From contig JAFWMS010000028.1 in assembly GCA_017545535.1 (NCBI GenBank), forward strand, positions 1-64,000: a DNA stretch of 64,000 nucleotides, read 5' to 3'. The translations under genes and the position numbers were made by a program. The first letter of the stretch is position 1. Each line of letters starts with the position of its first letter. Below, one piece after another: positions 28,160-52,721 of the stretch. The notes beneath the pieces were generated by a model. That model was not told the origin of the DNA. It saw nothing but the letters and a program-made list of their open reading frames with translations, and searched no databases. Origin of the DNA: Clostridia bacterium (GTDB lineage: Bacteria > Bacillota > Clostridia > Christensenellales > CAG-138).

Positions 28160-29566
28160 CTATCCCTTGGCCAAGCCATCCAATACCGAGAACTGCACCT
28201 TCCCGTATTCATTGCGCGGGATCTCGTCCACCAGTATTGCTCTGAAAGCCGAATTATGTATGTTGGTTTTTCCGCTTATGAACGGGACGATCTTGTCCTT
28301 CAAAGAAGCTTCCGTTATGAAGATATTCATCATCTTGTCATCGCCCGTGCAAACGATGTCCGTGTTCGGGAATTCCGATTTTAGTATTCTTTCCGTCTCA
28401 TCCAAGCTCACCCGCAATCCAAACAACTTCAAAAAGCGCCCCTTGCGGCCAATGATATAATAAAACCCGTCCGAATCTCGCCTGGCGATATCTCCGGTAT
28501 GATATTCCCCTTTGAATTCATCCCCTTTTTGTAGATCTTCACGGCAAAAAGCATATCCCATGGTCACATTGGGACCCCGATATCCAAGTTCTCCGGTCGT
28601 TGACCCGTCCTCCTGTCGCTGCTCATCCAACAAAAACAGCTCGCCGCCGGGAATAGCTTTGCCGATGCTGCCTATTTTTTCCAACGCCATATCAGGATTT
28701 AGGAACGCCATGCGTGCGCTCGTTTCGCTGGTCCCGAAAGTCGCACAGAAGCGCCTTCCGCTGTTCTTGGCAAAGGATGCGATCCACCTAAACATCTTAT
28801 CAGTCAGCTTGCCGCCACCCTCAGCAAGAGTATGCAATGCCGGAAGCTCCATTTTATCAAACCCAATTCGACGCATGACCTCATAACTAAAAGGAACGCC
28901 GCAGAAACTGGTCCCTTTATTCTCCCGGATAAACTGCCAAAAAGCCGGGTCCATCAGATTGGCCTTGACCAACAGCACCGTAGCGCCCACAATTAGATGG
29001 CTGTTGATCACATTGAGGCCCATGGTGTAATTCATGGGCAAATCGCAGATCCCTATCTCCTCACTTCGCCAGGCAAAAGCCTTAGCCACATTCCGAGCGT
29101 TAGCATCCAGGTTTCCATATTTGTGCCGCACAAGCTTCGGGCTTCCCGTAGATCCGGAGGTCGTGAGCAGCAAGGACAGCTGTTCATGAAGAGGATAGGG
29201 CTCGTTTTCCGTGCGCAGCAACACGTATCCGCACGCACTGTATATCTGCTCCCCTCGAACAATATCTCTCATCTGTTGAGGAAGCCAGTAATACGCTGGA
29301 AGATATAGATCCGACAGCCGCTTCAGCAGTTCAGTATCCAGTTTTGCTCCCAGCAGCAGGGGAACTTGCCCGTTGTTCTCCAAGGCCAAATATCCGATCA
29401 GGGAACCGGCAGAGTTTTCGCACAGGCAAAAGACCACACATCTGGGCAAATGCAAAGCGTCAAAGCCGCCAATCAGATCGCATGCTTCCCTGTATGTCAG
29501 TGCAAAACCGGAATCGTCTTTGATCGCCAGCTTTGACCTTTCCTGCCTGTCTAAATCTAAAAACAT
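28160..29566 (-). CDS. AMP-forming acyl/aryl ligase
   Basis: An AMP-binding (ANL) enzyme that activates a carboxylic acid as an adenylate and passes it to CoA or a carrier-protein thiol. The 468-residue protein has the phosphate loop LTTSGSTGSPK (134-144), the TFGTSETSA segment, YHTGDIARRDSDGFYYIIGR and the hinge plus C-terminal catalytic lysine in RNEYGKVQ near the end. It is the last gene of the long polysaccharide operon. With two acyl carrier proteins and ketoacyl synthases in the same operon, loading of a starter or finished acid on a carrier is the likely job. The acid cannot be read from the sequence. Confidence 0.85.
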   Translation of the reverse strand: MFLDLDRQERSKLAIKDDSGFALTYREACDLIGGFDALHLPRCVVFCLCENSAGSLIGYLALENNGQVPLLLGAKLDTELLKRLSDLYLPAYYWLPQQMRDIVRGEQIYSACGYVLLRTENEPYPLHEQLSLLLTTSGSTGSPKLVRHKYGNLDANARNVAKAFAWRSEEIGICDLPMNYTMGLNVINSHLIVGATVLLVKANLMDPAFWQFIRENKGTSFCGVPFSYEVMRRIGFDKMELPALHTLAEGGGKLTDKMFRWIASFAKNSGRRFCATFGTSETSARMAFLNPDMALEKIGSIGKAIPGGELFLLDEQRQEDGSTTGELGYRGPNVTMGYAFCREDLQKGDEFKGEYHTGDIARRDSDGFYYIIGRKGRFLKLFGLRVSLDETERILKSEFPNTDIVCTGDDKMMNIFITEASLKDKIVPFISGKTNIHNSAFRAILVDEIPRNEYGKVQFSVLDGLAKG

Positions 29567-29581: not shown

Positions 29582-30340
29582 TCACATGATCGTGCAGCCA
29601 TCCACCGCCAAAATCTGCCCGGAAACATAACCGGACAGATCGGATAACATGAACACGCATGCTTTAGCGATGTCCTCCGGCTCCGCCAGCCGACCCATGC
29701 AGATGTTGGCGATCCGACTCTGAAGCTTATCCGCCTGAGCCTGACGCATCATTTCCGTGTTGGTGAGTCCCGGAGCGATGGCGTTCACGCGAATATTCTT
29801 TTCCGCCAGCTCCTTGGCCGCAGATTTTGTCATGGACACGACAGCGCCTTTTGTCGCCGAATAGACCAGCTGGCCCCGATTGCCGCGAAGGGCCGTCATG
29901 GAAGCGATGTTCACGATGCTGCCGCCTTCAGCCTGACGGCTCATCACCCGGCTGACGATCTGAAGCATATTGATGGCGCCGAACACGTTGACGGTGAACA
30001 TCTTTTCCATATTGCTGCGACTGATCATTCCGATCAATTCGTTGAACTCAACGCCAGCGTTGTTCACCAATCCGTCGATTCGACCGCATTCTCTCTTGAT
30101 CTGCATGACGGCGGCTTTCGCTTCCTGCTCGCTGCTGATGTCAAAATAGAGAGGCCGAACCTCCCCTGGACCCTCTCTGTTGACCGACTCGTTCCATGCC
30201 TCCACCGTACCGGGACGAACATCGTTGGCATACACGACGGCCCCGTTTTGCGCAAACACGGTGGCCATGGCCTGTCCGATCCCTCGGCCGGCACCGGTGA
30301 CCAGGATGACTTTGTCTTTCAGACAATGATTCTCCCTCAT
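29582..30340 (-). CDS. Short-chain dehydrogenase/reductase, FabG-like
   Basis: The 252-residue protein has the nucleotide motif VTGAGRGIGQA (about 14-24), NNAG at about 93, the catalytic Ser in NIASMTALRG and the Tyr-Lys pair in YSATKGAV, all of the classical short-chain reductase family and closest in type to 3-oxoacyl-ACP reductases. It lies 15 bases before the ligase gene, with GGGAGG before its ATG. It is the third reductase of the operon and differs from the more alike pair at 38741-40298. Confidence 0.87.
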   Translation of the reverse strand: MRENHCLKDKVILVTGAGRGIGQAMATVFAQNGAVVYANDVRPGTVEAWNESVNREGPGEVRPLYFDISSEQEAKAAVMQIKRECGRIDGLVNNAGVEFNELIGMISRSNMEKMFTVNVFGAINMLQIVSRVMSRQAEGGSIVNIASMTALRGNRGQLVYSATKGAVVSMTKSAAKELAEKNIRVNAIAPGLTNTEMMRQAQADKLQSRIANICMGRLAEPEDIAKACVFMLSDLSGYVSGQILAVDGCTIM

Positions 30341-31697: not shown

Positions 31698-31724
31698 ATT
31701 TTCTCTCCTTCTATCGTCCGCATT

Positions 31725-32819: not shown

Positions 32820-32830
32820 ATGCTTTTCTC

Positions 32831-34027: not shown

Positions 34028-34062
34028 ACAAAGCTCCTTTATTCCCATGAAAGACTTCTACA

Positions 34063-37009: not shown

Positions 37010-37249
37010 TTACAGCTCTATTCCCATTCTCCCAAGGATGGCCTTTCCGTTCTCATAGGAGCCAAAGTGCAGAATATCTTCCGAGTCGAACATGATATCG
37101 AAAGCGTCTTCCAGCTCGGAAATGAGGGACAGATGGGCAACAGAATCCCATTGAGGCACACTTTGAAAAGTAAATGTGTCATCCAGCTGCTCTTTCTTTG
37201 CGTTCAGCACGCGCATAAATATCTCGTTATATTTTTCTAAATTGCTCAT
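37010..37249 (-). CDS. Acyl carrier protein 1
   Basis: A 79-residue acidic helical protein with the phosphopantetheine attachment serine in WDSVAHL (Ser36), where carrier proteins usually have DSL. It has the four-helix make-up and size of a free-standing acyl carrier protein. It is one of two carriers lying between the ketoacyl synthase gene and the Wzy gene, so it is probably dedicated to this locus rather than to general fatty-acid synthesis. It is about as unlike the second carrier as two ACP families can be. Confidence 0.85.
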   Translation of the reverse strand: MSNLEKYNEIFMRVLNAKKEQLDDTFTFQSVPQWDSVAHLSLISELEDAFDIMFDSEDILHFGSYENGKAILGRMGIEL

Positions 37250-37339
37250 TCTCTCATCCTTCTTTTTCCCAATAATACAATAAACCGTTCAAAGCCACAG
37301 AATTGCTTCTGCGGCCTTGAACGTTCTTCAAAAAAACAC

Positions 37340-37561
37340 TTATTTGTTCATCAAAGCAACGATATCACCAACGGTTTCAAAGCCCTTGATCATATCTCCG
37401 GTCAGCTTCACGCCGAACTCATCCTCCATGAGAACGATCAAGGACAGCTTCGCCATGGAATCGTACTCATCGATATCATCTAACTCCTTGTCCAAGGTGA
37501 GGTCCCCCTCATCCAGTTCCAGCATGTCCTCCAACAGGGCCAGCTTTTCACGTTCCGTCAT
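37340..37561 (-). CDS. Acyl carrier protein 2
   Basis: A 73-residue acidic carrier protein with the attachment serine in EYDSMAKLSL (Ser35). The ATG at 37561 is preferred over one 18 bases upstream because the perfect AAGGAGG sits within the longer frame. It follows ketoacyl synthase III copy 1 and precedes carrier 1. Having two carriers suggests that starter and extender, or two different acyl products, are kept apart; that is inference. Confidence 0.86.
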   Translation of the reverse strand: MTEREKLALLEDMLELDEGDLTLDKELDDIDEYDSMAKLSLIVLMEDEFGVKLTGDMIKGFETVGDIVALMNK

Positions 37562-37635
37562 TTTGACATCCTCCTTCATAGTTCTTTATCTACATCAGCA
37601 CGTCGTTCGCTGTATGTACCCATGCACTTTTTGCT

Positions 37636-38712
37636 TTATTTGAGTTCCCCATCATCGGTATAATCATCTGAATACCCATCGTCATAGGTATCTTTTCCAA
37701 TGCGGATCGGGAGAATATCCTTTACGTTGATCCTGAACCCGACGACGCCCCAGGAAAGGCCGATTCCAAAGGAGCTAGTCAACAGGTTTACTTCTTTGTC
37801 CTCCTCGCAGGTGCCATACTTATCCACGATAGCCAGCGGCACGGAGCAGCCGCTTGTATTGCCATAGCGATCCAGACACACGGGGACTTTTTCCATAGGC
37901 ATGCCCACGCGTTTGGCGATGGTCTTCAGGATCATCATATTGGCCTGATGGAGTACCAGATCATCATAATCATCGGCAGTCGTGCCGGTCTTCTGCAAAT
38001 ACTCTTCCAAAAGCATGGGAACTTCCCCGATGGTAAAGTTGAAAACAGCAACATCGTCGCCCGGAATGCTCTGAGGCCCTTCGGGATGTCTCCACGCCCC
38101 ATATGGACTCGACAGGGCTGCATGCCTGGTCCCGTCGCTCATAAGAGCGGAAGAGAAGCCGTTGTCCTCGCTCTTTTCAAGAAGGATAGCCGCACAGGCG
38201 TCGCCAAACAAAAGCCCTGTATTGGAAGACATGACCTTCTTTCTGTGCCTCCTGCCGCGGGCAAGCGTGTCTCCGACCGTCACCAAGGCTTTCGTCGCCG
38301 TCGATGTTTTCAAAATACTCGCGGCAAGTGAAACGCCGTAAACAAAGCCGGAGCAACCGAGATTGATATCAAACACCAGGCAATCCATGGAGAGGCCCAA
38401 TCTTTTCTGAATGACCAGCGCCGTAGCGGGCGTTCGATAATCGGGCGTCTGCGTCAGGTTGATCAACACGCCGATCTCTTCCGGCTTGTAATACCCAGCG
38501 TCCATGATCTGTTTTGCTGCGGAAAAGGAAAAATCTCCCGCAGTTTGTGAGAATCCGCTTTTCCTTTTCTCCAGGATCCCCGTGTTCTTCATGAAGCTTT
38601 TGACGTACTTGGGGTCGGGGTTGTCCAACTCACTCATAACATTAATCACCATCTCAGGGACTGAGGCAGCGATCGATGCGATCCTGATTCCTTCGTAATT
38701 GCTAAAAACCAT
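37636..38712 (-). CDS. 3-oxoacyl-ACP synthase III (KAS III), copy 1
   Basis: KAS III enzymes start acyl chains by condensing an acyl-CoA or acyl-ACP with malonyl-ACP. The 358-residue protein has the full triad: Cys120 in NLGCSGFVYG, His255 in LHQANMM, and Asn285 in DRYGNTSGCS. The C-terminus ends in an unusual acidic tail rich in Asp and Tyr (about 343-358). It shares Cys spacing and the SMDC...DI-LGCSGF block with copy 2. The four genes here run KAS III copy 2, reductase, reductase, KAS III copy 1. All active residues are present, so a working condensing enzyme is likely. Confidence 0.92.
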   Translation of the reverse strand: MVFSNYEGIRIASIAASVPEMVINVMSELDNPDPKYVKSFMKNTGILEKRKSGFSQTAGDFSFSAAKQIMDAGYYKPEEIGVLINLTQTPDYRTPATALVIQKRLGLSMDCLVFDINLGCSGFVYGVSLAASILKTSTATKALVTVGDTLARGRRHRKKVMSSNTGLLFGDACAAILLEKSEDNGFSSALMSDGTRHAALSSPYGAWRHPEGPQSIPGDDVAVFNFTIGEVPMLLEEYLQKTGTTADDYDDLVLHQANMMILKTIAKRVGMPMEKVPVCLDRYGNTSGCSVPLAIVDKYGTCEEDKEVNLLTSSFGIGLSWGVVGFRINVKDILPIRIGKDTYDDGYSDDYTDDGELK

Positions 38713-38740
38713 GTAATTTACTCTCCCTTCCTATGATTGA

Positions 38741-39511
38741 TCAGCAGCAGGCGAATCCGCCGTCAACGGGAAGATGGACGCCGGTGATCGTGCGGGAAGC
38801 GGGCGATAAGAGGAAAATGATAGCATTCGCGACGTCCAGCGGCGCATTCATGCCCAGGAACTGACGGGGATTGGCCTGCATCTTCATCTCCGTATCTTTC
38901 ATCGTCGCTTTCAGCTCCATATACTCAGTATACATCGCCGTCGCGGTAGCGGCCGGTTGAACGGTGTTCAGCCGAATTCCCTTCTCTCCAAGCTCCTTGG
39001 CCAGGCACCGCATCGCGCCATCCATAGCCGCTTTTGAAGCGCCGTATGCAGCTTGAGCTGTTGCTCCATGGGTCGCTGCAATAGAAGAGATGCCCACGAT
39101 GCTCATGCCTTCATTGAAACGGCCCTTTTTGCTGAGGATACGAACGATCTCAAAATAGGAATAGAAATTGACCAGCATGATTTTATGCAGACGATCGTAT
39201 TTATAATTGATCAGAGGCAGGTTCTTCACAATGCCCGCGCACTGCACGAAGCCGTCAAAAGCGCCGGTCTCCTTAACGATGTTCACCACCAACGGTTCCA
39301 GCTCTTCGATTTTAGAGAGGTCCGTCACATGGATCGAATGCCCTTCACCGGCAAGCATGGAAAGGGTCTCTTTCAACCCCTCCTCTTGCAGATCCATGAT
39401 CGAAACGCGAGCCCCCAATTGGCTCAGAGTGATAGCCGTCTGACGGCCGATACCGGAAGCGCCGCCGGTTATCAGGATATGTTTTCCTTCCATCTGAATG
39501 TAATCGAGCAT
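38741..39511 (-). CDS. Short-chain dehydrogenase/reductase, second of a pair
   Basis: The protein is 256 residues from the ATG at 39511, chosen because AAGGAGGAG precedes it. It has the cofactor motif ITGGASGIGRQ (about 14-24), QCAG, GISSIAATHG with the catalytic Ser, and YGASKAAMDGAMR with Tyr and Lys. It resembles the neighbouring reductase (39537-40298) in its shared EELEPLV segment and in the active-site helix. FabG-type reduction of a 3-oxoacyl carrier intermediate is likely given the flanking ketoacyl synthases. Confidence 0.87.
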   Translation of the reverse strand: MLDYIQMEGKHILITGGASGIGRQTAITLSQLGARVSIMDLQEEGLKETLSMLAGEGHSIHVTDLSKIEELEPLVVNIVKETGAFDGFVQCAGIVKNLPLINYKYDRLHKIMLVNFYSYFEIVRILSKKGRFNEGMSIVGISSIAATHGATAQAAYGASKAAMDGAMRCLAKELGEKGIRLNTVQPAATATAMYTEYMELKATMKDTEMKMQANPRQFLGMNAPLDVANAIIFLLSPASRTITGVHLPVDGGFACC

Positions 39512-39536
39512 TGTTCTCCTCCTTATGTACTCTTCT

Positions 39537-40298
39537 TTATCCCTGTAATATTCCGCCATCCATCAGGATGGATGTGCCCGTAATCGTCTTGGTCGCATCG
39601 CTCAGCAGGAAAGCAATGACGTTAGCTACCTCAACGGGTTCACTGACCCCCAAATACTGCCGCTCCTGGATCTCCTGTATATCCCTGCTGTCCGGATAAT
39701 CCCGTAAGAAGGAAGCATACATGTTTGTATTTACCCAACTGGGCATGATGGAATTGATGCGGATTTTCTTCTGCTTCAAGTCGCAAACCATGCAACGGAT
39801 CGCGGCATCGATCGCCGCTTTGGAAGCGCTGTACGCTACCTTGGTAGGCTTGCCGTGGATGCTGCCCGTGGAAGACATTGCTACAATGCTGCCGCCATTA
39901 GCAAACCGCTTTTTCAGCGTGATGCAGCGCACGATCTCCACAAAGGAAAAAAAGTTTATCTGCATCGTAGGTAGGATATCCTCATACTTGGTCATTTTAA
40001 ATGGCCGCATAGGTGCGATCCCAGCACAATGGACGAAACCGTCTAATGTGCCCACGTCATCGTAGACCTGCGCTATAAGTGGCTCTAATTCCTCTATTTT
40101 CTTCAGGTTGCTGACATAACATCTGTGGCCAGTCCCCTCAAGAGACTTCATTGTTTCCTCCAGCCTGTCCGGAAACACATCCATCATGATTATTCGTGCG
40201 CCCAATCGAGAAAGCTGCTGAGACGTAACCCGTCCAATGCCTCCGCCAGCACCTGAAATTAATACGGTTTTCCCACTCAAATCCATAGGATTGATCAT
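39537..40298 (-). CDS. Short-chain dehydrogenase/reductase, first of a pair
   Basis: The 253-residue protein has ISGAGGGIGRVT (about 14-25), HCAG, MSSTGSIHG with the catalytic Ser, and YSASKAAIDAAIRC with the Tyr-Lys pair. It begins about 14 bases after KAS III copy 2 and is followed by its paralogue. The two reductases share the sequence EELEPL and the same C-terminal pattern (LGxxxPxxVANxIxFLLS), pointing to a duplication. Each may serve one of the two ketoacyl synthases. Confidence 0.87.
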   Translation of the reverse strand: MINPMDLSGKTVLISGAGGGIGRVTSQQLSRLGARIIMMDVFPDRLEETMKSLEGTGHRCYVSNLKKIEELEPLIAQVYDDVGTLDGFVHCAGIAPMRPFKMTKYEDILPTMQINFFSFVEIVRCITLKKRFANGGSIVAMSSTGSIHGKPTKVAYSASKAAIDAAIRCMVCDLKQKKIRINSIMPSWVNTNMYASFLRDYPDSRDIQEIQERQYLGVSEPVEVANVIAFLLSDATKTITGTSILMDGGILQG

Positions 40299-40312
40299 TG
40301 TTTACTTCCCTT

Positions 40313-41404
40313 TCACATCAGCATCTCTGGAGTAATCTTTCCTTCCACATACCAATCCTTCGTTCTAATAATCGGAAAGACTTGGTCCATATTGATTTCG
40401 GCACTGGTCACGCCCCAGGACAATCCAATCCCGAAACCAGCCATGAAAACCCGCTTTACGCCCATGCCATGGCCTCCATAGTTTGCGCACAGAGTCAAGG
40501 GAATGGAGATGCCGCCTGTATTCCCATATCGATCCAGAGAGATCGGTACCTTCTCTTTGGGCAGCTTCAGCTTTCTGGACAGCTGTTTGATGATGAATTG
40601 ATTTGCCTGGTGGAACAAAAACAATTCATAATCGTCTGGCGTGGTTTGAGTATAGCCTAAATACTCCTGTACAGCTTGGGGAACATCCGAGATAGAGAAA
40701 GAGAATACCGACGTTCCTTCCATGTAAATATCGTACAAAGACCGCTCAATCCCATCGCTGCAAATAAAGCGATCCGCTGGAGGGTTCATATCCCGAAAAC
40801 CACCCGCAGGAAGGATGATGGTCCTAAACCTGCTTCCGTCGCTGCGCAACAGCGTAATGGACTTTGCCTTGGGCTGTCGCTCCAGCAAAATAGCCACCCC
40901 AGCATCACCATACATCATAACGATGGACTTGTCCAGCGGATGGACCAATTTGGAAGCCGTCTCCCCCATGAGCAGGAGGCAATACTTCATGTCCGATTGC
41001 GCCATCATGCTCATAGCCGTTTGAAGGCCGTAGATAAATCCAGAGCAGCCCAAACCGATATCCATGGCCGCGCAGTCCATGGAGAGTTTTAACCGGTGCT
41101 GCAGCACGCAGGCCGTGGCCGGCCGCCGGTAGTCCGGGGACTGGGTCACGAACAGCAGCGCCCCGATCTCGGACCGATCCACGGGCATATGGACAAAGAG
41201 ATTCTCCGCCGCCGCATAGGCAAGATCGCCGGCCGTCTGATCGGGCAATGCCTTAAACATGGCCTTGATCCCCGTTCCTGCGGTAAATTTTGCTGGGATC
41301 TCTTCGCCAAAAACAGGAACGAAGCTGTCGACCGTCACTTCATTGTCAGGCACGGCGCAGGCCATGCCCGCGATGCCGATCCCGCTGCTTTGGAAAAACG
41401 CCAA
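40313..41404 (-). CDS. 3-oxoacyl-ACP synthase III (KAS III), copy 2
   Basis: The 363-residue protein has the catalytic triad Cys120 (GLGCSGFIYG), His265 (FHQANQF) and Asn295 (DRYGNTGGIS), in the same positions relative to the start as copy 1. The first third, coding from about 41404 to 41060, is strikingly GC-rich, like FabD and the hydrolase upstream, while the rest matches the AT-richer downstream genes. This may mark an old recombination joint inside the gene, though the protein reads through intact. Confidence 0.92.
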   Translation of the reverse strand: MAFFQSSGIGIAGMACAVPDNEVTVDSFVPVFGEEIPAKFTAGTGIKAMFKALPDQTAGDLAYAAAENLFVHMPVDRSEIGALLFVTQSPDYRRPATACVLQHRLKLSMDCAAMDIGLGCSGFIYGLQTAMSMMAQSDMKYCLLLMGETASKLVHPLDKSIVMMYGDAGVAILLERQPKAKSITLLRSDGSRFRTIILPAGGFRDMNPPADRFICSDGIERSLYDIYMEGTSVFSFSISDVPQAVQEYLGYTQTTPDDYELFLFHQANQFIIKQLSRKLKLPKEKVPISLDRYGNTGGISIPLTLCANYGGHGMGVKRVFMAGFGIGLSWGVTSAEINMDQVFPIIRTKDWYVEGKITPEMLM

Positions 41405-41413
41405 AAGGATCCC

Positions 41414-42040
41414 TCACTTTCGTTTATAAATAAAGCTGTCGAAGTGGCCGGGATAGACGATGAGCCCTTCCGGCAGCTTTGCCAGGCGTGGAGCGCCGAT
41501 GGTGTTCCATCTTGTCTTACTTCCACCGGGAAGGCGAAGCGCGATCTGCACACCCTCGATCAGCGTGTCTCCCGAGAAAAAGTACCGATCATCCAAAATG
41601 ATCCCGATGCTGCCCAGAGAGTGGCCGGGCAATGCAAACAGTTTAAACGCATGGCCCCGCCATGTCAATACCGTTTCATCTTCGAAGGTCTCATCCGCGT
41701 GACAGGAAAACTGCGAATCGGCATCCGGAAGCTTGTCCAGCTTGACCCAAGTCTGCAGTTCACAGAACGCCGTAAAGGTACTTGCCAGGTTTCGCCGAGG
41801 GCTTTGAATATTCTCTCCACACGCCTGACTGCACAGGACCATGGCTCCGGTGGCTTCCTTCCACGCCAACACGCCAGAGATGTGATCGTAGTGCTCATGG
41901 GTCAAAAGGATATAATCGATCACCAGTCCCTCCGCCGGCGCTGTGTCCCGACAGGGGTCGATGATGATCCCATGATCCCCCTCTACGATCAGATACATAT
42001 TGGAGGACAGCAGATCCGATTCAAACCGCCTGATCTCCAT
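41414..42040 (-). CDS. Metallo-beta-lactamase-fold hydrolase
   Basis: The 208-residue protein has the metal-binding motif HEHYDH (48-53), a later GHS and FSGDTLIEG, and ends with PGH, the glyoxalase-II-like layout. Its ATG overlaps the FabD stop (TGATG), so translation is coupled. Enzymes of this fold release acyl or polyketide chains from carrier proteins as thioesterases in some pathways. That role fits the location between FabD and a ketoacyl synthase but is inference; glyoxalase-like activity is the alternative. Confidence 0.8.
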   Translation of the reverse strand: MEIRRFESDLLSSNMYLIVEGDHGIIIDPCRDTAPAEGLVIDYILLTHEHYDHISGVLAWKEATGAMVLCSQACGENIQSPRRNLASTFTAFCELQTWVKLDKLPDADSQFSCHADETFEDETVLTWRGHAFKLFALPGHSLGSIGIILDDRYFFSGDTLIEGVQIALRLPGGSKTRWNTIGAPRLAKLPEGLIVYPGHFDSFIYKRK

Positions 42041-42966
42041 CAAGCTTTCAGCTCCTCCAAGGTGTTGTTCAGCGTCTTAAGGTTCTCCACGCGGAGGATC
42101 TTCACGCCCTGCAACGTTTTTTTCACCAAGCCGGAGAGGGTCTTGCCGGGGCCGCATTCGATGAAGGTATCGATCCCGGCCGCCTGCATGTTCTCCAGCG
42201 TCTGCACCCAGCGAACGGGGTTCATGGCCTGCTTCACCAGCAGATCGGCCACCGGCGCAGCCGTAGTGATGGGCTTGCCGTCCACATTCATATACACGGG
42301 AACGGACGGATCGGCAAAGGGGATGGACTTGAATTCCTCTCCAAGGCGCATGGCCGCTGGCTCCATCAGCGCGCAATGGAAGGGGGCGCTGACAGCCAGC
42401 TTGATGCTCCGAAAGCCCTCCGCCTCCGCCAGTTCGCAGGCTTCGTCCACGCCGGCGGCAGTGCCGGAAACCACGGTCTGCACGGGGCTGTTATAGTTGG
42501 CAGCGACCACGTATCCCTTCGTCACCTTGGCGCAGAGCTGCTCCACCTGCTCCGCTGTGGCACCCACGAAAGCCGCCATGGCGCCCTCACCGGGAGCCAC
42601 CGCCTCCTGCATGGCGTCGGCCCGGATCTGCACCACCCGGAACGCTTCCTCTACGGGAATGGCCCCGGCAAACGCCAACGCCGCGTACTCGCCCAGGGAG
42701 AACCCTGCCACGGCGTCCGGTTCGATACCCTTGGCCCGCAATGCCATGCCGGCAGCCAAATCGCCGGCCAGCATGCAGGGCTGGGTGTTGTGGGTCAGGT
42801 TCAGATCCTCCTGGGTTCCCTCGAAGCATACCTGCGATATGGAACGCCCCAAAGCCTTATCGGCCTGCTCAAACACCTTCCGTGCAGCCTCGTCGGTATC
42901 GCACAGATCTTTCATCATGCCCGGGTACTGAGCCCCCTGGCCGGAAAACAAAAAAGCGATCTTCAT
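42040..42966 (-). CDS. fabD: Malonyl-CoA:ACP transacylase
   Basis: FabD loads malonyl units on acyl carrier protein. The 308-residue protein has FSGQGAQYPGM at the N-terminus, the nucleophile Ser90 in GFSLGEYAAL, Arg in the QIRADAMQ segment, and His197 in SAPFHCALM; all match the family and normal length. It is GC-rich like the chromosomal backbone, unlike the sugar genes upstream. It is the first gene of the acyl module inside the polysaccharide operon and would feed both ketoacyl synthases. Confidence 0.94.
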   Translation of the reverse strand: MKIAFLFSGQGAQYPGMMKDLCDTDEAARKVFEQADKALGRSISQVCFEGTQEDLNLTHNTQPCMLAGDLAAGMALRAKGIEPDAVAGFSLGEYAALAFAGAIPVEEAFRVVQIRADAMQEAVAPGEGAMAAFVGATAEQVEQLCAKVTKGYVVAANYNSPVQTVVSGTAAGVDEACELAEAEGFRSIKLAVSAPFHCALMEPAAMRLGEEFKSIPFADPSVPVYMNVDGKPITTAAPVADLLVKQAMNPVRWVQTLENMQAAGIDTFIECGPGKTLSGLVKKTLQGVKILRVENLKTLNNTLEELKA

Positions 42967-43069: not shown

Positions 43070-43714
43070 TTACTCCCCCTTCGATGGACTACCCATAAAC
43101 TCTTCCATAGTCACACAAGTGCCAGAGTCAATACCATCATGTTTTAATACCACGCGAACCGTATCCAAAATGATTTTCAAATCACCAAGAAAAGTGATCT
43201 TATCTACATACCTCACATCCCACTCAAATTTTTCCTCCCAAGAGATACTGTTCCTCCCATGAACCTGAGCTAAACCGGTGAACCCAGGGCGCACTTCGTG
43301 ACGCCTGGCCTGTCGAGGATTATATCGTGAAAGGTATTGCACCATCAACGGTCTGGGACCAACCAAACTCATGTCACCTTTCAAAATGTTAAGCAACTCC
43401 GGCAATTCATCCAAAGAAGTAGCTCGCAGCTTCTTTCCAAAGGCCGTCAGTCGCATATCGTCAGGCAACAAATTACCTTCTGCATCTTTTTCGTTGGTCA
43501 TGGAGCGAAATTTATAAAGTCTAAATATCTTTCCTTCCCGGCCGGGCCTCTGCTGCGAAAAAATCACCGGGGCACCCAACTTCACTCTCACCAAAACAGC
43601 TAGTATCAACAACGCCGGAGACAATACGATTATCGCCAATGCTGCACAGAGAATATCTTGTGGCCGCTTAACAAACCTTTCGTAAAACCCATAAGGTTTA
43701 TGCTTTGTCATCAT
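43070..43714 (-). CDS. Initiating phosphosugar transferase (PglC-like)
   Basis: The 214-residue protein is a small monotopic phosphoglycosyl transferase: one N-terminal hydrophobic helix (about 22-43), FRLYKFRSM, DELPELLNILKGDMSLVGPRP with the catalytic Asp-Glu pair, and a C-terminal EVRPGFTGLAQVHGRN. Such enzymes put the first sugar phosphate of the repeat unit onto undecaprenyl phosphate. The short PglC form commonly uses UDP-diacetylbacillosamine, matching the PglF/PglE/PglD-like genes of this operon. It follows the PglD-like gene by 15 bases. Confidence 0.88.
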   Translation of the reverse strand: MMTKHKPYGFYERFVKRPQDILCAALAIIVLSPALLILAVLVRVKLGAPVIFSQQRPGREGKIFRLYKFRSMTNEKDAEGNLLPDDMRLTAFGKKLRATSLDELPELLNILKGDMSLVGPRPLMVQYLSRYNPRQARRHEVRPGFTGLAQVHGRNSISWEEKFEWDVRYVDKITFLGDLKIILDTVRVVLKHDGIDSGTCVTMEEFMGSPSKGE

Positions 43715-43729: not shown

Positions 43730-44380
43730 TTAGTTTTCCAACATATGCATCCGTTTGGCCGGATTACCCAGCACGGTGGTACCTGCCTTAACATTAGAAA
43801 ACACTACGCTGCCCGCTGCCACTGTAGCCCTGTCACCTATCTTCTTACCAGGAAGGATAAACACGTGCCCGCCAATCCGCACTTCAGTTCCGATTTTGCA
43901 ATCACCGCTGATACCGGTCATCGGCATAATAGTGGTATAATCGCCGACGCTCACATCATGCCCGATGTTCGCCATCTGATTCAGGACCACCCCATCGCCG
44001 ATAGTGCAGTTAACTGAAACGGAGACGCCTCCATAAAGCACGCAGCCTGCCCCTAATCTAGTATAGGGACAAACGAAACTGCCGTAAGCAGTAATCGTCT
44101 CAAACTGCACCCCCTGGGCCATCAGTTCCCGCTGAATCTTCCCTTTCACTGCCGGATTGCCGATAGTACAATTACATACCACATCCTTATGAGTCAATAT
44201 CCACTCTTTCTTTCCAATCCATGGATAGCCATTGATCATCATTCCTTCTTTATATCCAGTACCATCATCCAAAAAACCCAACAGCTCATAAGTAGGCCTT
44301 ATGGAGTTAAGCACCTCAATAATGGATGCTACCTCACGACCAAATCCGCCTGCACCGATCAGAACAATCCTCTTTAGCAT
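43730..44380 (-). CDS. PglD-like sugar N-acyltransferase (hexapeptide repeat)
   Basis: The 216-residue protein has an N-terminal Rossmann start (LIGAGGFGREVASII) and a C-terminal left-handed beta helix of hexapeptide repeats (INGYPWIG, then GAGCVLYGGVSVSVN, NIGHDVSVGDY with the catalytic-type His, GKKIGDRATVAAGSVV). This is the PglD/NeuD acyltransferase family, which acetylates amino groups of nucleotide sugars, as in bacillosamine synthesis. With an acyl module in the operon, a longer acyl donor is conceivable, but nothing in the sequence decides this. Confidence 0.87.
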   Translation of the reverse strand: MLKRIVLIGAGGFGREVASIIEVLNSIRPTYELLGFLDDGTGYKEGMMINGYPWIGKKEWILTHKDVVCNCTIGNPAVKGKIQRELMAQGVQFETITAYGSFVCPYTRLGAGCVLYGGVSVSVNCTIGDGVVLNQMANIGHDVSVGDYTTIMPMTGISGDCKIGTEVRIGGHVFILPGKKIGDRATVAAGSVVFSNVKAGTTVLGNPAKRMHMLEN

Positions 44381-44453: not shown

Positions 44454-45632
44454 TTAGCTATCCTTTCGCCACACCATTTTGTTAACAATACCAACATAGC
44501 TTTGAATGATCTTGATCACTTTATCGCTAACATTTACATCTTTATAATCTGGAACCGCAACAGCTCCCCCACAAGGCTCATTTCGCACCATATCGGTTGC
44601 GATATCCACCGCCTGCAATAATCCTGCAGCATTTATGCCCGAAAGGACGAAACAACCTTTTTCCATAGCCTCTGGCCGCTCTGTTGATGTTCTGATACAA
44701 ACTGCAGGAAAAGGATGACCAATAGAAGTAAAGAATGAGCTTTCTTCCGGCAACGTCCCGCTGTCTGATACCACGCAGAACGCATTCATCTGTAGACAAT
44801 TATAATCATGGAATCCCAATGGCTCATGCTGAATAACATTTTTGTTTAACTGAAATCCGCTTTCATTCAGTCGTTTTTTACTTCTAGGATGGCATGAATA
44901 CAAGATCGGCATATCATACTTTTCAGCCATACGGTTAATTGCCGAAAACAAGCTGATAAAGTTTTTCTCGATATCAATGTTTTCTTCCCGATGCGCAGAA
45001 AGCAAGATATACTTCCCCTTTTCTAACCCAAGCCGCGAGTGAATATTCGAAGATAATATTGCCGATAAACTGTCCGACAACACTTCAGCCATGGGACTAC
45101 CCGTCACGAATGTCCGCTCTTTAGGCAAACCACAATCAGCAAGATAACGTCTGGCATGTTCAGAATATGCTAAATTTACATCTGAAATTATGTCCACAAT
45201 TCGGCGATTGGTTTCCTCTGGCAGACACTCATCCTTACAGCGATTTCCTGCCTCCATATGGAAGATTGGAATATGAAGCCTTTTCGCACCAATAACCGAT
45301 AAGCAAGAATTTGTATCTCCCAAAACAAGCACAGCATCTGGTCCGATCTTCACCATGAGTTGGTAGCTTTTTGAAATAATGTTCCCCATCGTCTCACCCA
45401 AATCTTTACCAACTGCATCCAAGTATATCTCAGGGGCTTCTAACTGTAGGTCGCGAAAAAAGACCCCATTCAATGAATAATCATAATTCTGTCCGGTATG
45501 CGCAAGAATCGTATCAAAATACTGCCGACTTTTTTTGATCACTGCCGCTAAGCGTATTATTTCTGGTCTTGTACCAACAATAATTAAAAGCTTTAGCTTT
45601 CCGTTTTCTTTCCAAGTAACTGTTTCTTTCAT
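44454..45632 (-). CDS. capG: UDP-N-acetylglucosamine 2-epimerase type (CapG)
   Basis: The 392-residue protein has the WecB/CapG fold signatures: IVGTRPEIIRLA, DAVLVLGDTNSCLS, FHMEAGNRCKDECLPEETNR, SAHREENID and SDSGTLPEESSFF. In the CapE-CapF-CapG route the last enzyme inverts C2 to yield UDP-N-acetyl-L-fucosamine. The three genes are adjacent and in order here, so CapG is preferred over a general WecB. It starts 18 bases after capF. The gene is AT-rich, like the rest of this block. Confidence 0.9.
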   Translation of the reverse strand: MKETVTWKENGKLKLLIIVGTRPEIIRLAAVIKKSRQYFDTILAHTGQNYDYSLNGVFFRDLQLEAPEIYLDAVGKDLGETMGNIISKSYQLMVKIGPDAVLVLGDTNSCLSVIGAKRLHIPIFHMEAGNRCKDECLPEETNRRIVDIISDVNLAYSEHARRYLADCGLPKERTFVTGSPMAEVLSDSLSAILSSNIHSRLGLEKGKYILLSAHREENIDIEKNFISLFSAINRMAEKYDMPILYSCHPRSKKRLNESGFQLNKNVIQHEPLGFHDYNCLQMNAFCVVSDSGTLPEESSFFTSIGHPFPAVCIRTSTERPEAMEKGCFVLSGINAAGLLQAVDIATDMVRNEPCGGAVAVPDYKDVNVSDKVIKIIQSYVGIVNKMVWRKDS

Positions 45633-45650
45633 GTTGCGCCTCTTTCACGC

Positions 45651-46901
45651 TCACCGTTTCACAACTGGTTCAAAAAAAGTGTCTGGGCTTTGTGGATTAA
45701 ACACTTCGTTTGCCCACATCAATGTCACCAAATCTTCTGTTTTGCTCAGATTGATAATATTATGAGTATACCCTGGAAGCATATGTACCGCCTGAATCTT
45801 CTTCCCACTCACTCTAAATTCAAGCACCTCATCTGTTGCAATTTTCCTCTCTTGAATCAATCCTTCCCCGGAAACAACAATGAAAAACTCCCATTTACTG
45901 TTGTGCCAATGCTCCCCCTTTGTGACCCCTGGTTTGCTGATGTTCACCGAAAACTGACCGTGATCAATTGTTTTTATGAGTTCAGTAAAACTTCCCCTGT
46001 CATCACAATGCATTTTAAGGTCGACAACAATCTTTTCCTTTGGCAAATAGCTCAAATACATAGAATACAATTTTTTTTCAAAGCTATTCGATGCGATTCT
46101 AGGCATAAAAAGAGTTTTTGGCTGATCGTGAAAAGCATGTAAACACTCCACGATATATCCTAATGATGCTTTGTGCGTAACTGTTGCCCCACAATACTTC
46201 CCTTCAGCAGTCCACAACGGCGTCACTCCATCATATTGAACCCCTCCAACCGTTTCTCCCGCCATAGGATAATTGCAACGATGCGGATGACCCTCCATCG
46301 CTTCAAACATCTCTTCAACTAGATCATCAATGAACAACAGTTCAAGTTCCAAATTCGGATCACTTATGTGAATTGGAAGATCATTTGCAATACTGTTGCA
46401 AAACGTGGCAACCGCAGAGTTATAATTTGGTCGAATCCATTTCCCCACTAAATTCGGAAGCCTATATACATACACTGTAGCTCCTGTTTTTTCTGCATAC
46501 TCAAAAAAAAGATCTTCTCCTTCTTTTTTACTAAGACCATATTCTGAAACACCAAAACGGCCGGAAAGGGTTGCCTGAATGCTGCTACTTAACATGACAG
46601 GGCAGGTATTTCGATGCTTTTTAAGGATGTCCAGAAGTTGGGAGGCAAAGCCAAAGTTCCCTCTTTTGTAGTCCGCAGGATCCTTGGGTCGATTAACCCC
46701 TGCAATGTTGAACACAAAATCTGCTTTTGCGCACCATTCATCCAGCTGTTCCAGCGAATTATTTAAATCATATTCATATACCTCATTAATCCTCAGCGCT
46801 GGATGCATCCGATTTTTTGAATCGCGAATATTCTTTAGATTCTCTACAAGATTCCTTCCAAAAAACCCGGCTGCTCCGGTAACCAAAACATTCATATGCA
46901 T
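45651..46901 (-). CDS. capF: CapF-type bifunctional epimerase/reductase
   Basis: The 416-residue protein combines an N-terminal short-chain reductase (VTGAAGFFGRNLVEN, YGLSKKEGED) with a C-terminal cupin (GVTKGEHWHNSKWEFFIVV with metal histidines, and HMLPGYTHNI), the specific architecture of CapF. In Staphylococcus aureus this enzyme carries out C3 epimerisation and C4 reduction on the way to UDP-L-FucNAc. It lies between capE and capG. The frame's first codon pair MHM offers two starts; the difference is trivial. Confidence 0.93.
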   Translation of the reverse strand: MHMNVLVTGAAGFFGRNLVENLKNIRDSKNRMHPALRINEVYEYDLNNSLEQLDEWCAKADFVFNIAGVNRPKDPADYKRGNFGFASQLLDILKKHRNTCPVMLSSSIQATLSGRFGVSEYGLSKKEGEDLFFEYAEKTGATVYVYRLPNLVGKWIRPNYNSAVATFCNSIANDLPIHISDPNLELELLFIDDLVEEMFEAMEGHPHRCNYPMAGETVGGVQYDGVTPLWTAEGKYCGATVTHKASLGYIVECLHAFHDQPKTLFMPRIASNSFEKKLYSMYLSYLPKEKIVVDLKMHCDDRGSFTELIKTIDHGQFSVNISKPGVTKGEHWHNSKWEFFIVVSGEGLIQERKIATDEVLEFRVSGKKIQAVHMLPGYTHNIINLSKTEDLVTLMWANEVFNPQSPDTFFEPVVKR

Positions 46902-46928
46902 CTGCCTCTTTCTTTGATGCCCTTTGCT

Positions 46929-47975
46929 CTAGTTGTATCTTATGCCCTTCAACTCTTCTTGCACATAGTCAGTCGTCAATAGTTTCTTTACGATACCATT
47001 AATGTCTAATCTTAAAGTATTATGACTGGTGTAACTCTCCTCCGCTTCCGTTTCAACCTTGCCGCGAACAAAGAATTTATCATAGTTCAAATCACGATTA
47101 TCAGCTGCAATGCGGAAGTATTCCCCCATATCTTCTGCACGCAACCTTTCTTCTCTGGTCATTAATGTTTCATATAACTTTTCACCATGTCTCGTTCCAA
47201 TGATATTTGTACCTGTATCGCCAAACAGTTTCTGGACTGCTTTTGCTAAATCACCGATAGTGCTTGCATCTGCTTTTTGAATAAAAAGATCCCCGGGACT
47301 CGCATTTATAAAAGCGAAACGAACCAACTCAACCGCTTCATCTAAATTCATCAAAAAGCGAGTCATTTCTGGATTGGTAATTGTAATTGGGGCCCCCATT
47401 CGAATTTGATCAATAAACAAAGGAATGACCGAACCACGAGAACACATCACGTTCCCATATCTCGTGCAACAAATTACTGTTCCCCCTCGTTCCGAAGCCA
47501 CTCGCGCATTTGCAAAAATGACGTGTTCCATCATCGCCTTTGAAATCCCCATTGCATTAATTGGATAGGCTGCCTTATCTGTTGAAAGACAGACTACCTT
47601 TTTCACGTTTGCATCTATTGCAGCATGAAGAACATTATCTGTTCCTTCAACATTTGTTTTTACTGCCTGCATGGGAAAAAACTCGCAGGAAGGAACCTGC
47701 TTCAACGCCGCGGCATGAAAAATATAGTCCACACCTGGCATCGCATCGGCAATGCTTCTCTGGTCTCTTACGTCCCCAACGAAAAACTTAACCTTTGATG
47801 CAAAATCAGGATATTTAGCCTGTAATTCATGTCGCATATCATCCTGTTTCTTTTCATCTCGAGAAAAAATACGGATTTGTCCAATATCTGACCCCAAAAA
47901 ATGTTTCAAAACCGTATTCCCAAAAGACCCCGTTCCGCCAGTTATCATCAATGTCGCGCCACCAAATTCAGACAT
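46929..47975 (-). CDS. capE: CapE-type UDP-GlcNAc 4,6-dehydratase/5-epimerase
   Basis: The 348-residue protein has ITGGTGSFGNTVLKHFL (about 11-27), FHAAALKQVPSCEF, STDKAAYPINAMGISKAMME with the family's Met-x3-Lys pair, and the C-terminal GTRHGEKLYETL. This is the soluble inverting dehydratase that starts UDP-L-FucNAc synthesis. It is the first of capE-capF-capG and follows the glycosyltransferase gene by about 70 bases. A longer membrane-bound relative (50655-52721) serves the other sugar. Confidence 0.93.
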   Translation of the reverse strand: MSEFGGATLMITGGTGSFGNTVLKHFLGSDIGQIRIFSRDEKKQDDMRHELQAKYPDFASKVKFFVGDVRDQRSIADAMPGVDYIFHAAALKQVPSCEFFPMQAVKTNVEGTDNVLHAAIDANVKKVVCLSTDKAAYPINAMGISKAMMEHVIFANARVASERGGTVICCTRYGNVMCSRGSVIPLFIDQIRMGAPITITNPEMTRFLMNLDEAVELVRFAFINASPGDLFIQKADASTIGDLAKAVQKLFGDTGTNIIGTRHGEKLYETLMTREERLRAEDMGEYFRIAADNRDLNYDKFFVRGKVETEAEESYTSHNTLRLDINGIVKKLLTTDYVQEELKGIRYN

Positions 47976-49285: not shown

Positions 49286-50596
49286 TCACATAAAGCAGCG
49301 ATGGATAATCTCGATCACCCTGTCCTGCCGTGCAGGAGTCATCTTGTTATCAGACGGTAAGCAGAGGCCGCGGCGGAAAATATCCGCGCCAACGTCCTGG
49401 CCAGAACCGGCGATGTAGGCGTTGGTGCAGCCGCGACCGTTGCCCTCGGCCGTGATGAAAGCATGAGTGCGATAGATGGGCTGCATATGCATGGGCTTCC
49501 AAATGGGACGGCCCTCGGCGTTGAAGGCGGCCAAGGCGTCCAGGATCTCATGGGGCGAGCTCTTCCCACTCTCATGGATGTAGAGGTAATCCTGTTCTCC
49601 GCGGACCATGGGCGCCATGGCCTCCTCGTCGATGATCAGGCAGGACAGCCAGAAATTGGGCTGGGACTTTTCTGCATCGAAGGGATTCATTTTGACGGGC
49701 AAGTCGGCAAGGCCGGCCTTGTACCGCTCATAGATCGCCTTCTTCTGGGCAATATGCTCGTCAAGGTGAGGAAGCTGACCCCGGACGATGCCCGCGATGA
49801 TGTTGCTCATGCGGTAGTTGTAGCCGATCTCCTCGTGCTGGTACCAAGGGGCGGCTTCACGGCTCTGGGTGGACCACTTTCGAACCTTGTTGGCGTCCTC
49901 CTCGCTGTCGGTCAGGAACATGCCGCCGGCGCTGCCGGTTATGATCTTGTTGCCGTTGAAGGAGATGCAGTTGTAATCGCCCAGAGTCCCCGTTTCGACC
50001 CACTGGCCGTTCAGCAAATATTTGGACCCAAAGGATTCCGCCGCGTCCTCCACGATCAGTGCCCCATGGCTGTCACAGATGGCCTTGATCTGCTCCGCCT
50101 TTCCGGGCGTGCCATACAGATGCGCTACCACCACCAAGCGGGTGTCCGGGTAAAGCTCGAAAGCCTTTTCCAGTGCCTCGGGGCTCATGTTCCAGGTGTC
50201 GCTCTCCGTATCGATGAACACCGCTTCCCCATCCTCATAGGCCACGGGGTTGATGCTGGCGTCGAAGGTCATATCGGAGCAGAAGACCCGATGGCCCTGA
50301 AGGGTGCCTGCGTTGGGACGGGCCTGCCCATACAGCTTTTCACCGGCCAGCTTCGTGGCCAAATGAAGGGCCGCCGTGCCGCAGGACAGGGCCACGGCAT
50401 GCTTGCAGCCCACATAGTTTGCGACCTGCTTTTCGATCTCGTTGATGTTGGCACCGACGGTGCTGACCCAGTTGGTCCGGATGGCTTCGTCGACCCACTG
50501 CTGTTCCTCCCCATGCATGGTGGGGGTGGCAAGCCATACCTTGGTCGGGAACGGCTCTATCCCCGCAAACCGGGGATCGTTGTGAAAACTGCTCAT
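49286..50596 (-). CDS. DegT/DnrJ/EryC1 sugar aminotransferase (PglE-like)
   Basis: A PLP-dependent aminotransferase of the sugar type. The 436-residue protein has CGTAALHLA near the start, DAAESFGSKY, and SFNGNKIITGSAGGM with the PLP lysine, plus a C-terminal RPIWKPMHMQPIY active-site block. It follows the PglF-like dehydratase gene by 58 bases, so it should aminate the UDP-4-keto-6-deoxy sugar made by that enzyme, as PglE does. The gene is GC-rich again, unlike capEFG downstream. Confidence 0.92.
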   Translation of the reverse strand: MSSFHNDPRFAGIEPFPTKVWLATPTMHGEEQQWVDEAIRTNWVSTVGANINEIEKQVANYVGCKHAVALSCGTAALHLATKLAGEKLYGQARPNAGTLQGHRVFCSDMTFDASINPVAYEDGEAVFIDTESDTWNMSPEALEKAFELYPDTRLVVVAHLYGTPGKAEQIKAICDSHGALIVEDAAESFGSKYLLNGQWVETGTLGDYNCISFNGNKIITGSAGGMFLTDSEEDANKVRKWSTQSREAAPWYQHEEIGYNYRMSNIIAGIVRGQLPHLDEHIAQKKAIYERYKAGLADLPVKMNPFDAEKSQPNFWLSCLIIDEEAMAPMVRGEQDYLYIHESGKSSPHEILDALAAFNAEGRPIWKPMHMQPIYRTHAFITAEGNGRGCTNAYIAGSGQDVGADIFRRGLCLPSDNKMTPARQDRVIEIIHRCFM

Positions 50597-50654: not shown

Positions 50655-52721
50655 TCAGCTGGCGGCTTTCTCTGTTTCGGATGCGCCTTCAGACCGGATG
50701 GACGCTCCCCCATCGACGGGATGGTAGGTGGACACCATATCCATCAGTTTCTCCCGAATGCACGATTCCTTGTTGGCATAGGCCACATCCATGAGTCCGG
50801 ACAGCTTCACCAGGAACAGATCGTGGTCAAAGGGAATGGGGTTGCCGATATGGATGAGATCGTTGTCCGTTTTGCGGAGCCCTTCCTCGGACATGAGCTT
50901 TTCCTCGTACAGCTTTTCGCCGGGACGGAGGCCGGTGTACACGATCTTGATATCCTCCCCCGGCTTAAACCCGGCCAGTTTGATGAGGTTCCGAGCCAAA
51001 GAGTCGATCTTGACAGGCCGTCCCATGTCCAGCACGAATATCTCTCCGCCGTGGGCGTAGGTGCCGGCCAGCATCACCAGGCTCACCGCCTCTGGGATGG
51101 TCATAAAGTAGCGAATGATGTCCGGGTGGGTCACGGTGACCGGGCCGCCCTTGGCGATCTGCCGCTTGAACAGGGGGATCACGGAGCCGTTGCTCCCCAG
51201 CACGTTGCCGAAGCGGACCGCCACGAACTCGGTTTGGATATTCTCGAACACTCGGCCGGTGCCATCCTTATCCGCGTTCTCCTCCCCAAGATGGGTGAAC
51301 AGCTGGGGGATATCTCGAGCCTTGCCCTCCTTGATCTTGGCGTCGAAGCACTGAATGATCATCTCGCAAAGCCGCTTACTGGCGCCCATCACGTTGGTGG
51401 GGTTCACCGCCTTGTCCGTGGAGATGAGCACGAATCGCTCACAGCCGTGGACCATGGCAGCGTAGGCGGTCTTATAGGTGCCGATGGCGTTGTTCTTGAT
51501 GGCCTCGCAGGGACTGTCCTCCATGAGGGGCACGTGCTTGTGAGCCGCCGCATGATATACGATCTGGGGGCGATAGGTATCGAACACCTGGAAGATCCTT
51601 CGACTGTCCCGAACAGACCCGATGAGGGTGGTCAACTTGAGGCCGGGGAAGTTGGATTTCAGCTCCAGCTTGATATCGTAGGCGTTATTCTCGTAGATAT
51701 CGAATATGATGAGCTCCTTGGGATTGTGGGCCGCGATCTGCCGGCAGAGCTCGCTGCCGATGGAGCCGCCGCCGCCCGTGACCATGACCGTTTTGCCGTT
51801 GATGAACGCAAAAACCCCGCTCATGTCGGCCTGGATAGGTGCACGACCCAGCAGATCTTCCACGGACACGTCCTTCATGGCGCTGACCGTCAGCTGGCCG
51901 GAAATCAGCTGGTACATGCCCGGCAGCTGCTTGAGCTCGCAGTCCGTGCTGCTGCAGATATTCAAAATCTCCCGTTTATCCTCCGCGTTGGCGCTGGGGA
52001 TGGCCAGAAAGATCTTGTCCACATGATACTTCTTCACGTTGACCAGGATATCGTCCCGGCCGCCCACCACCAGCACGCCGTCCATGTAGCGGCCCCACTT
52101 GTTGGGGTCGTCATCGATGATACAGACCACCTTGTTCTCCGGCTTCTCCGCCAGATTCACATCCCGCAGGATCATCTGTCCCGCATCGCCGGCGCCGATG
52201 AGCATGACCCGGCCCAAAGCTTCCTTATTCAGGCTTCGATGCTGTCGCTCATGACGGATGAATCGGTAGAAGAACCGGATCAATACCAGAAAGGCGGTTT
52301 GGGCCATGGTCCCGCCAAGATAATAGGAGATGGGCATACGACCGCCAGGAAGGCTATCCCGGCACAGCAGCGTGATGCCAATGGCATGGACCACGGAGGT
52401 CAAAAGGGATGCCTCCAGGGTGCGCACCAGCTCCGTGAAGCTGGCGTACTGCCACATGCTCTTATACAGCCGAAACAGCACCAGCACCAGCAAAGTAAAC
52501 AGAGCGTAGGGCAGGATGATCTTTTGGTAGGCCGCAAAGTACAGGCTCTCCTTATTCACGACCGTGGAGTAGGAGAAATCGAAGCGTGTCAACAGGGCCA
52601 GGAACCAGGCGCCGCAGACGGTGATAAAGTCATAGGCCCCCATCAGCAGAGACAGTATACGCCACTGCAAGCGCACTTTCCGATCTGCCTTATAATTCGA
52701 TTGCATAGGTTGCTCGCTCAT
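50655..52721 (-). CDS. PglF/CapD-type membrane UDP-GlcNAc 4,6-dehydratase
   Basis: The 688-residue protein starts with four or five membrane helices (to about residue 150), then a first Rossmann domain (VMLIGAGDAGQMILRD) and a catalytic domain with VMVTGGGGSIGSELCRQI, YHAAAHKHVPLMED and STDKAVNPTNVMGASKR. This is the WbpM/PglF/CapD class that makes UDP-2-acetamido-2,6-dideoxy-4-keto-hexose. Followed by the aminotransferase, and with PglD- and PglC-like genes further on, it fits the first step of UDP-diacetylbacillosamine synthesis. The protein is full length. Confidence 0.92.
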   Translation of the reverse strand: MSEQPMQSNYKADRKVRLQWRILSLLMGAYDFITVCGAWFLALLTRFDFSYSTVVNKESLYFAAYQKIILPYALFTLLVLVLFRLYKSMWQYASFTELVRTLEASLLTSVVHAIGITLLCRDSLPGGRMPISYYLGGTMAQTAFLVLIRFFYRFIRHERQHRSLNKEALGRVMLIGAGDAGQMILRDVNLAEKPENKVVCIIDDDPNKWGRYMDGVLVVGGRDDILVNVKKYHVDKIFLAIPSANAEDKREILNICSSTDCELKQLPGMYQLISGQLTVSAMKDVSVEDLLGRAPIQADMSGVFAFINGKTVMVTGGGGSIGSELCRQIAAHNPKELIIFDIYENNAYDIKLELKSNFPGLKLTTLIGSVRDSRRIFQVFDTYRPQIVYHAAAHKHVPLMEDSPCEAIKNNAIGTYKTAYAAMVHGCERFVLISTDKAVNPTNVMGASKRLCEMIIQCFDAKIKEGKARDIPQLFTHLGEENADKDGTGRVFENIQTEFVAVRFGNVLGSNGSVIPLFKRQIAKGGPVTVTHPDIIRYFMTIPEAVSLVMLAGTYAHGGEIFVLDMGRPVKIDSLARNLIKLAGFKPGEDIKIVYTGLRPGEKLYEEKLMSEEGLRKTDNDLIHIGNPIPFDHDLFLVKLSGLMDVAYANKESCIREKLMDMVSTYHPVDGGASIRSEGASETEKAAS

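Follow-up and report, generated by a model that had tools for sequence, protein, structure and literature searches.

A candidate short-chain acyl synthase cassette in a polysaccharide operon of a Clostridia bacterium apparently lacking type II fatty-acid synthesis

Described precedents for the acyl-building cassette considered here come from Gram-negative bacteria. In Flavobacterium psychrophilum, the O-polysaccharide contains both N-acetyl-L-fucosamine (L-FucNAc) and 2-acetamido-4-amino-2,4,6-trideoxyglucose (Qui2NAc4N), and nuclear magnetic resonance (NMR) places a 3,5-dihydroxyhexanoyl group on the 4-amino group of the latter (PMC6519341; also PMC3210612). Its R1-group cluster wfpC-wfpG combines fln and pglE/F with a PglD homologue (wfpG), an acyl carrier protein (ACP; wfpD), two ketoacyl-ACP synthases (KAS; wfpC and wfpE) and a reductase (wfpF), the gene assignment being the authors' prediction (PMC6519341). 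In the viosamine island of Pseudomonas syringae (vioS/vioR/acp/vioB), an N-3-hydroxybutyryl sugar arises through VioB, an ACP and one each of KAS and reductase, and deletion of vioR leads to loss of the modified viosamine (PMC3927599). In this report, we analyze a stretch of 64,000 nucleotides from a Clostridia bacterium (contig JAFWMS010000028.1, assembly GCA_017545535.1), hereafter the window, in which an eight-gene cassette lies within a polysaccharide gene run. We regard it, with somewhat better than balanced confidence, as a self-contained acyl synthase of type II that decorates a wall polysaccharide with short chains, and we favour a single product of two condensation rounds.

Compared by described gene content, the closest described system is the F. 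psychrophilum O-antigen, in that the window holds the corresponding set of two KAS, reductase and ACP genes amid homologues of fln, pglE/F and PglD. F. psychrophilum differs in making a Gram-negative O-antigen and in having rhamnose genes in the cluster, and FabD, the hydrolase and the ligase go unmentioned in the part of its description consulted. With the P. syringae island the window shares KAS III, reductase, ACP and a PglD/VioB-like transferase for a 4-amino sugar, whereas that island has one KAS and serves dTDP-viosamine on flagellin, with 3-hydroxybutyryl as the acyl group, and the window has Pgl homologues of a UDP-sugar pathway together with Fnl homologues. FabD, KAS III, ketoreductase-like enzymes and ACP chemistry are also shared with type II fatty-acid synthase, unlike which neither dehydratase nor KAS I/II was found in the host genome.

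Gene content of the cassette

The eight genes occupy 37010-42966 on the minus strand, spaced -23 to +90 nt apart, in the order, from the highest coordinate, FabD, metallo-β-lactamase (MBL)-fold hydrolase, KAS1, short-chain dehydrogenase/reductase (SDR) 1, SDR2, KAS2, ACP1 and ACP2. Behind a 223-nt gap upstream of it, a third reductase (SDR3) and an AMP-forming ligase terminate the same gene run, whose far end is at 28160; spacing and strand suggest that cassette, SDR3 and ligase form one operon. Families were assigned by Pfam and NCBIfam profile searches (Table 1), and coordinates, profiles and catalytic residues bear out the gene set that a first-pass annotation of this DNA had listed. FabD has the serine motif GFSLGE and an arginine within IRADAM (read by eye). 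KAS1 and KAS2 are KAS III enzymes by Pfam, yet fall under the NCBIfam FabH cut-offs, and alignment shows the Cys-His-Asn triad to be intact in both, as had been proposed. SDR1 and SDR2 are indeed related, with 43% identity and Ser-Tyr-Lys retained in each. Both carriers possess the Asp-Ser phosphopantetheine site; ACP2 has no Pfam match, but aligns, with this site kept, with relatives from 12 other loci. The MBL protein retains the metal ligands HxHxDH...H...D...H, and the best Protein Data Bank folds for its predicted model are BLEG-1 and GloB; the fold search led only to a broad glyoxalase II/lactamase neighbourhood and to no specific function, and our guess is an editing thioesterase that clears stalled thioesters. 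The ligase shows a TSGSTGSPK loop and a C-terminal GK (read by eye), and its closest solved structures, oxalyl- and acyl-CoA ligases, are uninformative as to substrate.

From the Fnl and Pgl homologues among the neighbouring sugar genes, the predicted products are UDP-L-FucNAc and UDP-2-acetamido-4-amino-2,4,6-trideoxyglucose. The window has one PglD-type gene, and the closest solved structures to its product are VioB and a pilin glycosylation transferase; this enzyme is the likely user of the acyl-ACP.

Related loci and KAS phylogeny

Scanning the named genomes with an alignment of three KAS sequences yielded 80 loci, referred to below by L numbers, whose neighbours were matched by BLAST against the window proteins at our own thresholds. 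A matched SDR is present in 76 loci, these matches not being family-specific, and a matched ACP in 64. Co-occurrence with Pgl genes across genomes, a check that the first-pass annotation had proposed, is seen in 44 of the 57 loci of at least 14 kb, which carry at least one homologue of PglC, D, E or F; the other 13 have none. Cassette KAS were found in Bacillota and Bacteroidota as well as further phyla, in most cases with bacillosamine (Pgl) genes as neighbours; the cassette is widespread, unannotated and not unique to the window. Beyond what had been noted earlier, nearly the same set occurs in L048-L050 (with one SDR in L048), where the extended flanks carry SDR3, as well as the ligase in L048 and L050 (the L049 contig stops after SDR3). 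In L048 and L051, KAS1 and KAS2 occur together, accompanied by one reductase. A related, unannotated set is found in [Clostridium] symbiosum ATCC 14940 (L052) as the run PglE-PglC-PglD-MBL-KAS1-SDR-ACP1-ACP2-SDR3-ligase, with acyl genes 47-69% identical to those of the window; it differs in having no KAS2 and no FabD in the cluster, and its genome has FabZ, FabD and AccC. The order KAS-ACP-KAS-reductase, as described for F. psychrophilum, is absent from the window and occurs in L079, L080, L107 and L121. A literature search for clostridial precedents found none, which is no proof of absence.

In a first tree of 125 rows (122 KAS from the 80 loci and the relative genomes L036 and L037, plus KAS1 and KAS2 of the window, with a lone housekeeping FabH serving as outgroup), KAS1 clusters with L048-L055 (9 rows, support 100) and KAS2 falls into a different clade (15 rows, support 99), in which 14 of the 15 loci have a second KAS. 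The two enzymes are therefore members of separate deep clades. Because a single FabH outgroup cannot test the separation from housekeeping enzymes, the split was retested with FastTree on the 124 cassette KAS and eight FabH from relatives, and all 124 came to lie on one side and all eight on the other with support 100. The Cys-His-Asn triad is complete in 124/124 cassette KAS and 8/8 FabH. At the positions equivalent to the CoA-binding Trp32 and Arg36 of E. coli FabH, located through the DEW motif, tryptophan occurs in 0/124 cassette KAS vs 8/8 FabH, and arginine in 0/124 vs 6/8. Since these equivalents are absent, the primer site of the cassette KAS would appear to be altered.

The genes of the cassette also sort into groups. 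Full-length relatives of the ligase (at least 39% identity; 39-73% in those co-occurring with ACP2) have ACP2 with them wherever they were seen (L036, L048, L050, L052-L055, L070, L078, L082 and L095), and hence ACP2-SDR3-ligase looks like a second, co-occurring sub-module. SDR3 stands together with ligase and ACP2 in L048, L050, L052-L055 and others; the partners of ACP2 are thus ligase and SDR3, not KAS2. SDR2 adjoins KAS2 in L048, L049, L058, L060, L061 and L115, with 82-91% identity there, and ACP1 is 89-96% identical in L048, L049, L051, L058 and L115. Hairpins in the ACP1-ACP2 gap with z < -4.5 and other sequence also occur in L049 and L050, and no such strong hairpin was found in the stretches of L048, L051, L052 and L053 that were examined, some of them at other positions.

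Table 1. Features of the window, with strand and supporting match
Feature	Coordinates	Strand	Support
FabD-type malonyl-CoA:ACP acyltransferase	42040..42966	-	TIGR00128, 287.9 bits, above curated cut-off 260.9
MBL-fold hydrolase, glyoxalase II/GloB-like, complete metal site	41414..42043	-	PF00753; AlphaFold pLDDT 94.3
KAS1, cassette-type KAS III	40313..41404	-	PF08541/PF08545
SDR1, ketoreductase-like	39537..40298	-	PF13561
SDR2, ketoreductase-like	38741..39559	-	PF13561
KAS2, second cassette-type KAS III, separate clade	37636..38712	-	PF08541/PF08545; tree
ACP1, probable carrier of KAS sub-module	37340..37579	-	PF00550, 32.2 bits
17-bp RNA hairpin between ACP1 and ACP2	37286..37323	-	z -4.9
ACP2, probable carrier of ligase sub-module	37010..37249	-	aligned relatives in 12 other loci
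SDR3, probable reductase of ligase sub-module	29582..30340	-	PF13561
AMP-forming ligase	28160..29566	-	PF00501
PglD/VioB-type sugar N-acyltransferase	43730..44380	-	TIGR03570, above cut-off
PglC-type initiating phosphoglycosyltransferase	43070..43714	-	PF02397
PglE-type sugar 4-aminotransferase	49286..50596	-	PF01041
PglF-type UDP-GlcNAc 4,6-dehydratase	50655..52721	-	NCBIfam PseB/FnlA domain matches, below cut-off
FnlC, FnlB, FnlA (UDP-L-FucNAc genes)	44454..47975	-	best matches TIGR00236, NF047837, TIGR04130, each below curated cut-off

GC content along the operon is uneven (38-41% in FnlA-C and the glycosyltransferase family 4 (GT4) gene, 44-62% in the cassette, 54.5% in the window overall), and the low value of 44454-49261, which spans FnlA-C and GT4, suggests a mosaic operon. 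At 30564-34048, a gene for an FrhB-like protein precedes two genes for polysaccharide pyruvyl transferases, a trio found in whole or in part near the cassette in L048-L050, L058, L060 and L115.

Fatty-acid synthesis and malonyl supply in the host

The host genome comprises 2.5 Mb in 43 contigs and is 97% complete. It had been remarked that the cassette has no FabZ-type dehydratase, enoyl reductase or KAS I/II, and for dehydratase and KAS I/II this extends to the whole genome: PF07977 (FabZ/FabA) has 0 matches, the same search being positive in 20/101 genomes, and the single weak partial PF00109 match, considered as a KAS I/II, proved to be a thiolase next to crotonase and hydroxyacyl-CoA dehydrogenase. 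The sole PF00698 protein is the cassette FabD, and the only two PF08541 proteins are KAS1 and KAS2. None of the 10 other genomes of the genus matches PF07977; nine of them lack PF08541 matches, the tenth (G006, 70% complete) has one weak match (E 5.8e-4, below the family cut-off), and no FabD was found in G005 (10 contigs, 97% complete). In many Firmicutes, fab genes sit in the plsX-acpP-rnc-smc stretch, and the host has this gene order without fab genes between. Taken together, these findings make the lineage appear to be without type II fatty-acid synthesis, enoyl reductase and fatty-acid uptake genes having been left out of the genome-wide search. Because the cassette is absent from the other genomes of the genus, it looks like a late arrival there, possibly by transfer. 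Elsewhere in the host genome (contig C4, ~186.6-188 kb; L151:6621-11010), an AMP ligase-like open reading frame (ORF) and a 95-residue carrier protein lie in a stretch that also holds an ORF resembling acyl-ACP thioesterase, with no NCBIfam match; several congeners have PF00550 matches that score like this carrier.

In most FabZ-negative genomes with a cassette, the lone FabD is the cassette's own. A tie between cassette FabD and loss of fatty-acid synthesis, suggested by raw counts (10/3 vs 6/22, Fisher p 0.0014), was not significant when the tree was taken into account (independent pairs on the KAS tree, 3.5 vs 1.0). Cassette FabD is missing in 3 of the 13 FabZ-negative loci, namely L056 (11-kb contig), L064 (4-kb contig) and L061, whose contig is not short.

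As to malonyl supply, nothing in the host genome exceeds 26.7 bits for AccC, the FabZ-bearing genomes G061, G090 and G105 scoring above 650 bits. Nor does any match exceed the AccC cut-off in the FabZ-negative cassette genomes G094, G023, G101, G102, G103, G113, G114 and G134, and G124 has no match; another such genome, G137 (Adlercreutzia), has two matches above it. The sole PF01039 protein of the host is MmdA-like (528 residues; its 778 bits fall short of the cut-off, 998.8), and its gene has as neighbours an epimerase-like gene and one for a methylmalonyl-CoA mutase C-terminal domain (contig C6, ~50-53 kb; L148:5445-7925). It is a tentative idea that the malonyl-ACP pathway is kept solely for sugar decoration in the absence of fatty-acid synthase and acetyl-CoA carboxylase, with malonyl-CoA coming by another route, such as MmdA-type transcarboxylation, and with KAS III primed from a carrier protein instead of CoA.

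Proposed pathway and its alternatives

In the pathway that we infer, FabD would load malonyl onto ACP1, KAS1 would condense malonyl-ACP1 with a two-carbon primer, and SDR1 would reduce the product to 3-hydroxybutyryl-ACP. KAS2 and SDR2 would most likely carry out a further round with no dehydration step, yielding a 3,5-dihydroxyhexanoyl-type ACP. The PglD-like transferase would then pass the acyl group to the 4-amino group of UDP-2-acetamido-4-amino-2,4,6-trideoxyglucose, and PglC would place the acylated sugar onto a lipid carrier. The MBL hydrolase probably removes stalled thioesters, and ACP2-SDR3-ligase may load an acid onto ACP2, either as an alternative primer or as a second acyl group. 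Two rounds on one chain are suggested because F. psychrophilum has two KAS for a single chain, the clades of KAS1 and KAS2 are distinct, L048 and L051 pair them with one reductase, and the window has one PglD-type gene. Since the host thiolase pathway could furnish 3-hydroxybutyryl-CoA without any cassette, a product that is longer or bound to a carrier is mildly favoured. The first-pass annotation had expected the chain to stop after one condensation and reduction. On the grounds just given this is doubtful, and we give two rounds on one chain roughly an even chance. What that annotation observed is confirmed, and it was right about the kind of system, the chain length being the uncertain part: a module devoted to acylating the glycan, built on acyl carriers and probably served by the PglD-like transferase, agrees with the Pgl neighbourhood in the long loci and with both Gram-negative precedents (PMC6519341; PMC3927599).

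Several points weigh against a two-round decorating synthase. The single transcription unit is deduced from spacing and strand, no clostridial member has a known product, and no recognised acetyl-CoA carboxylase that could supply malonyl-CoA was found in the host genome. The F. psychrophilum cluster has one reductase and another gene order, and hence matches by content, not by order. Moreover, L048-L050 each carry two PglD homologues, which fits two acyl groups and leads to the main rival, also raised earlier, in which each of the two KAS-reductase pairs yields, in a single round, a 3-hydroxyacyl group different from that of the other. The presence of two such pairs and of two carriers speaks for it, and it draws mainly on the separability of ACP2-SDR3-ligase; on the other hand, the window's one PglD-type gene, the company that ACP2 keeps with ligase and SDR3 instead of KAS2, and the single chain of the two-KAS precedent make it rather unlikely.

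The seemingly altered primer site bears on another alternative, combinable with two rounds of extension, in which ligase and ACP2 provide the primer, so that KAS1 (and KAS2) would elongate the ACP2-bound acid with malonyl-ACP1 to give an unusual hydroxyacyl group. The absence of the FabH CoA-binding equivalents in every cassette KAS and the constant company of full-length ligase relatives and ACP2 are consistent with it, but most cassettes are without such a ligase and yet also without the tryptophan, and we regard it as a tentative possibility. That the module instead makes a product such as a lipid or small metabolite and lies in this operon by coincidence is very improbable: the evidence tying it to the glycan is indirect and some long loci are without Pgl homologues, yet the PglC/D/E neighbourhood recurs in several phyla, and with no FabZ in the genome a usual fatty-acid role falls away.

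If a short-chain acyl synthase for the wall polysaccharide is indeed what the cassette encodes, malonyl-ACP chemistry would be uncoupled from fatty-acid synthesis, and a cell seemingly importing its fatty acids would retain FabD and KAS III only for surface decoration. This raises the question of where malonyl-CoA originates in bacteria without recognised acetyl-CoA carboxylase. It also connects this cassette, widespread and unannotated as it is, with a predicted substituent on a sugar, for which mass spectrometry offers a test.

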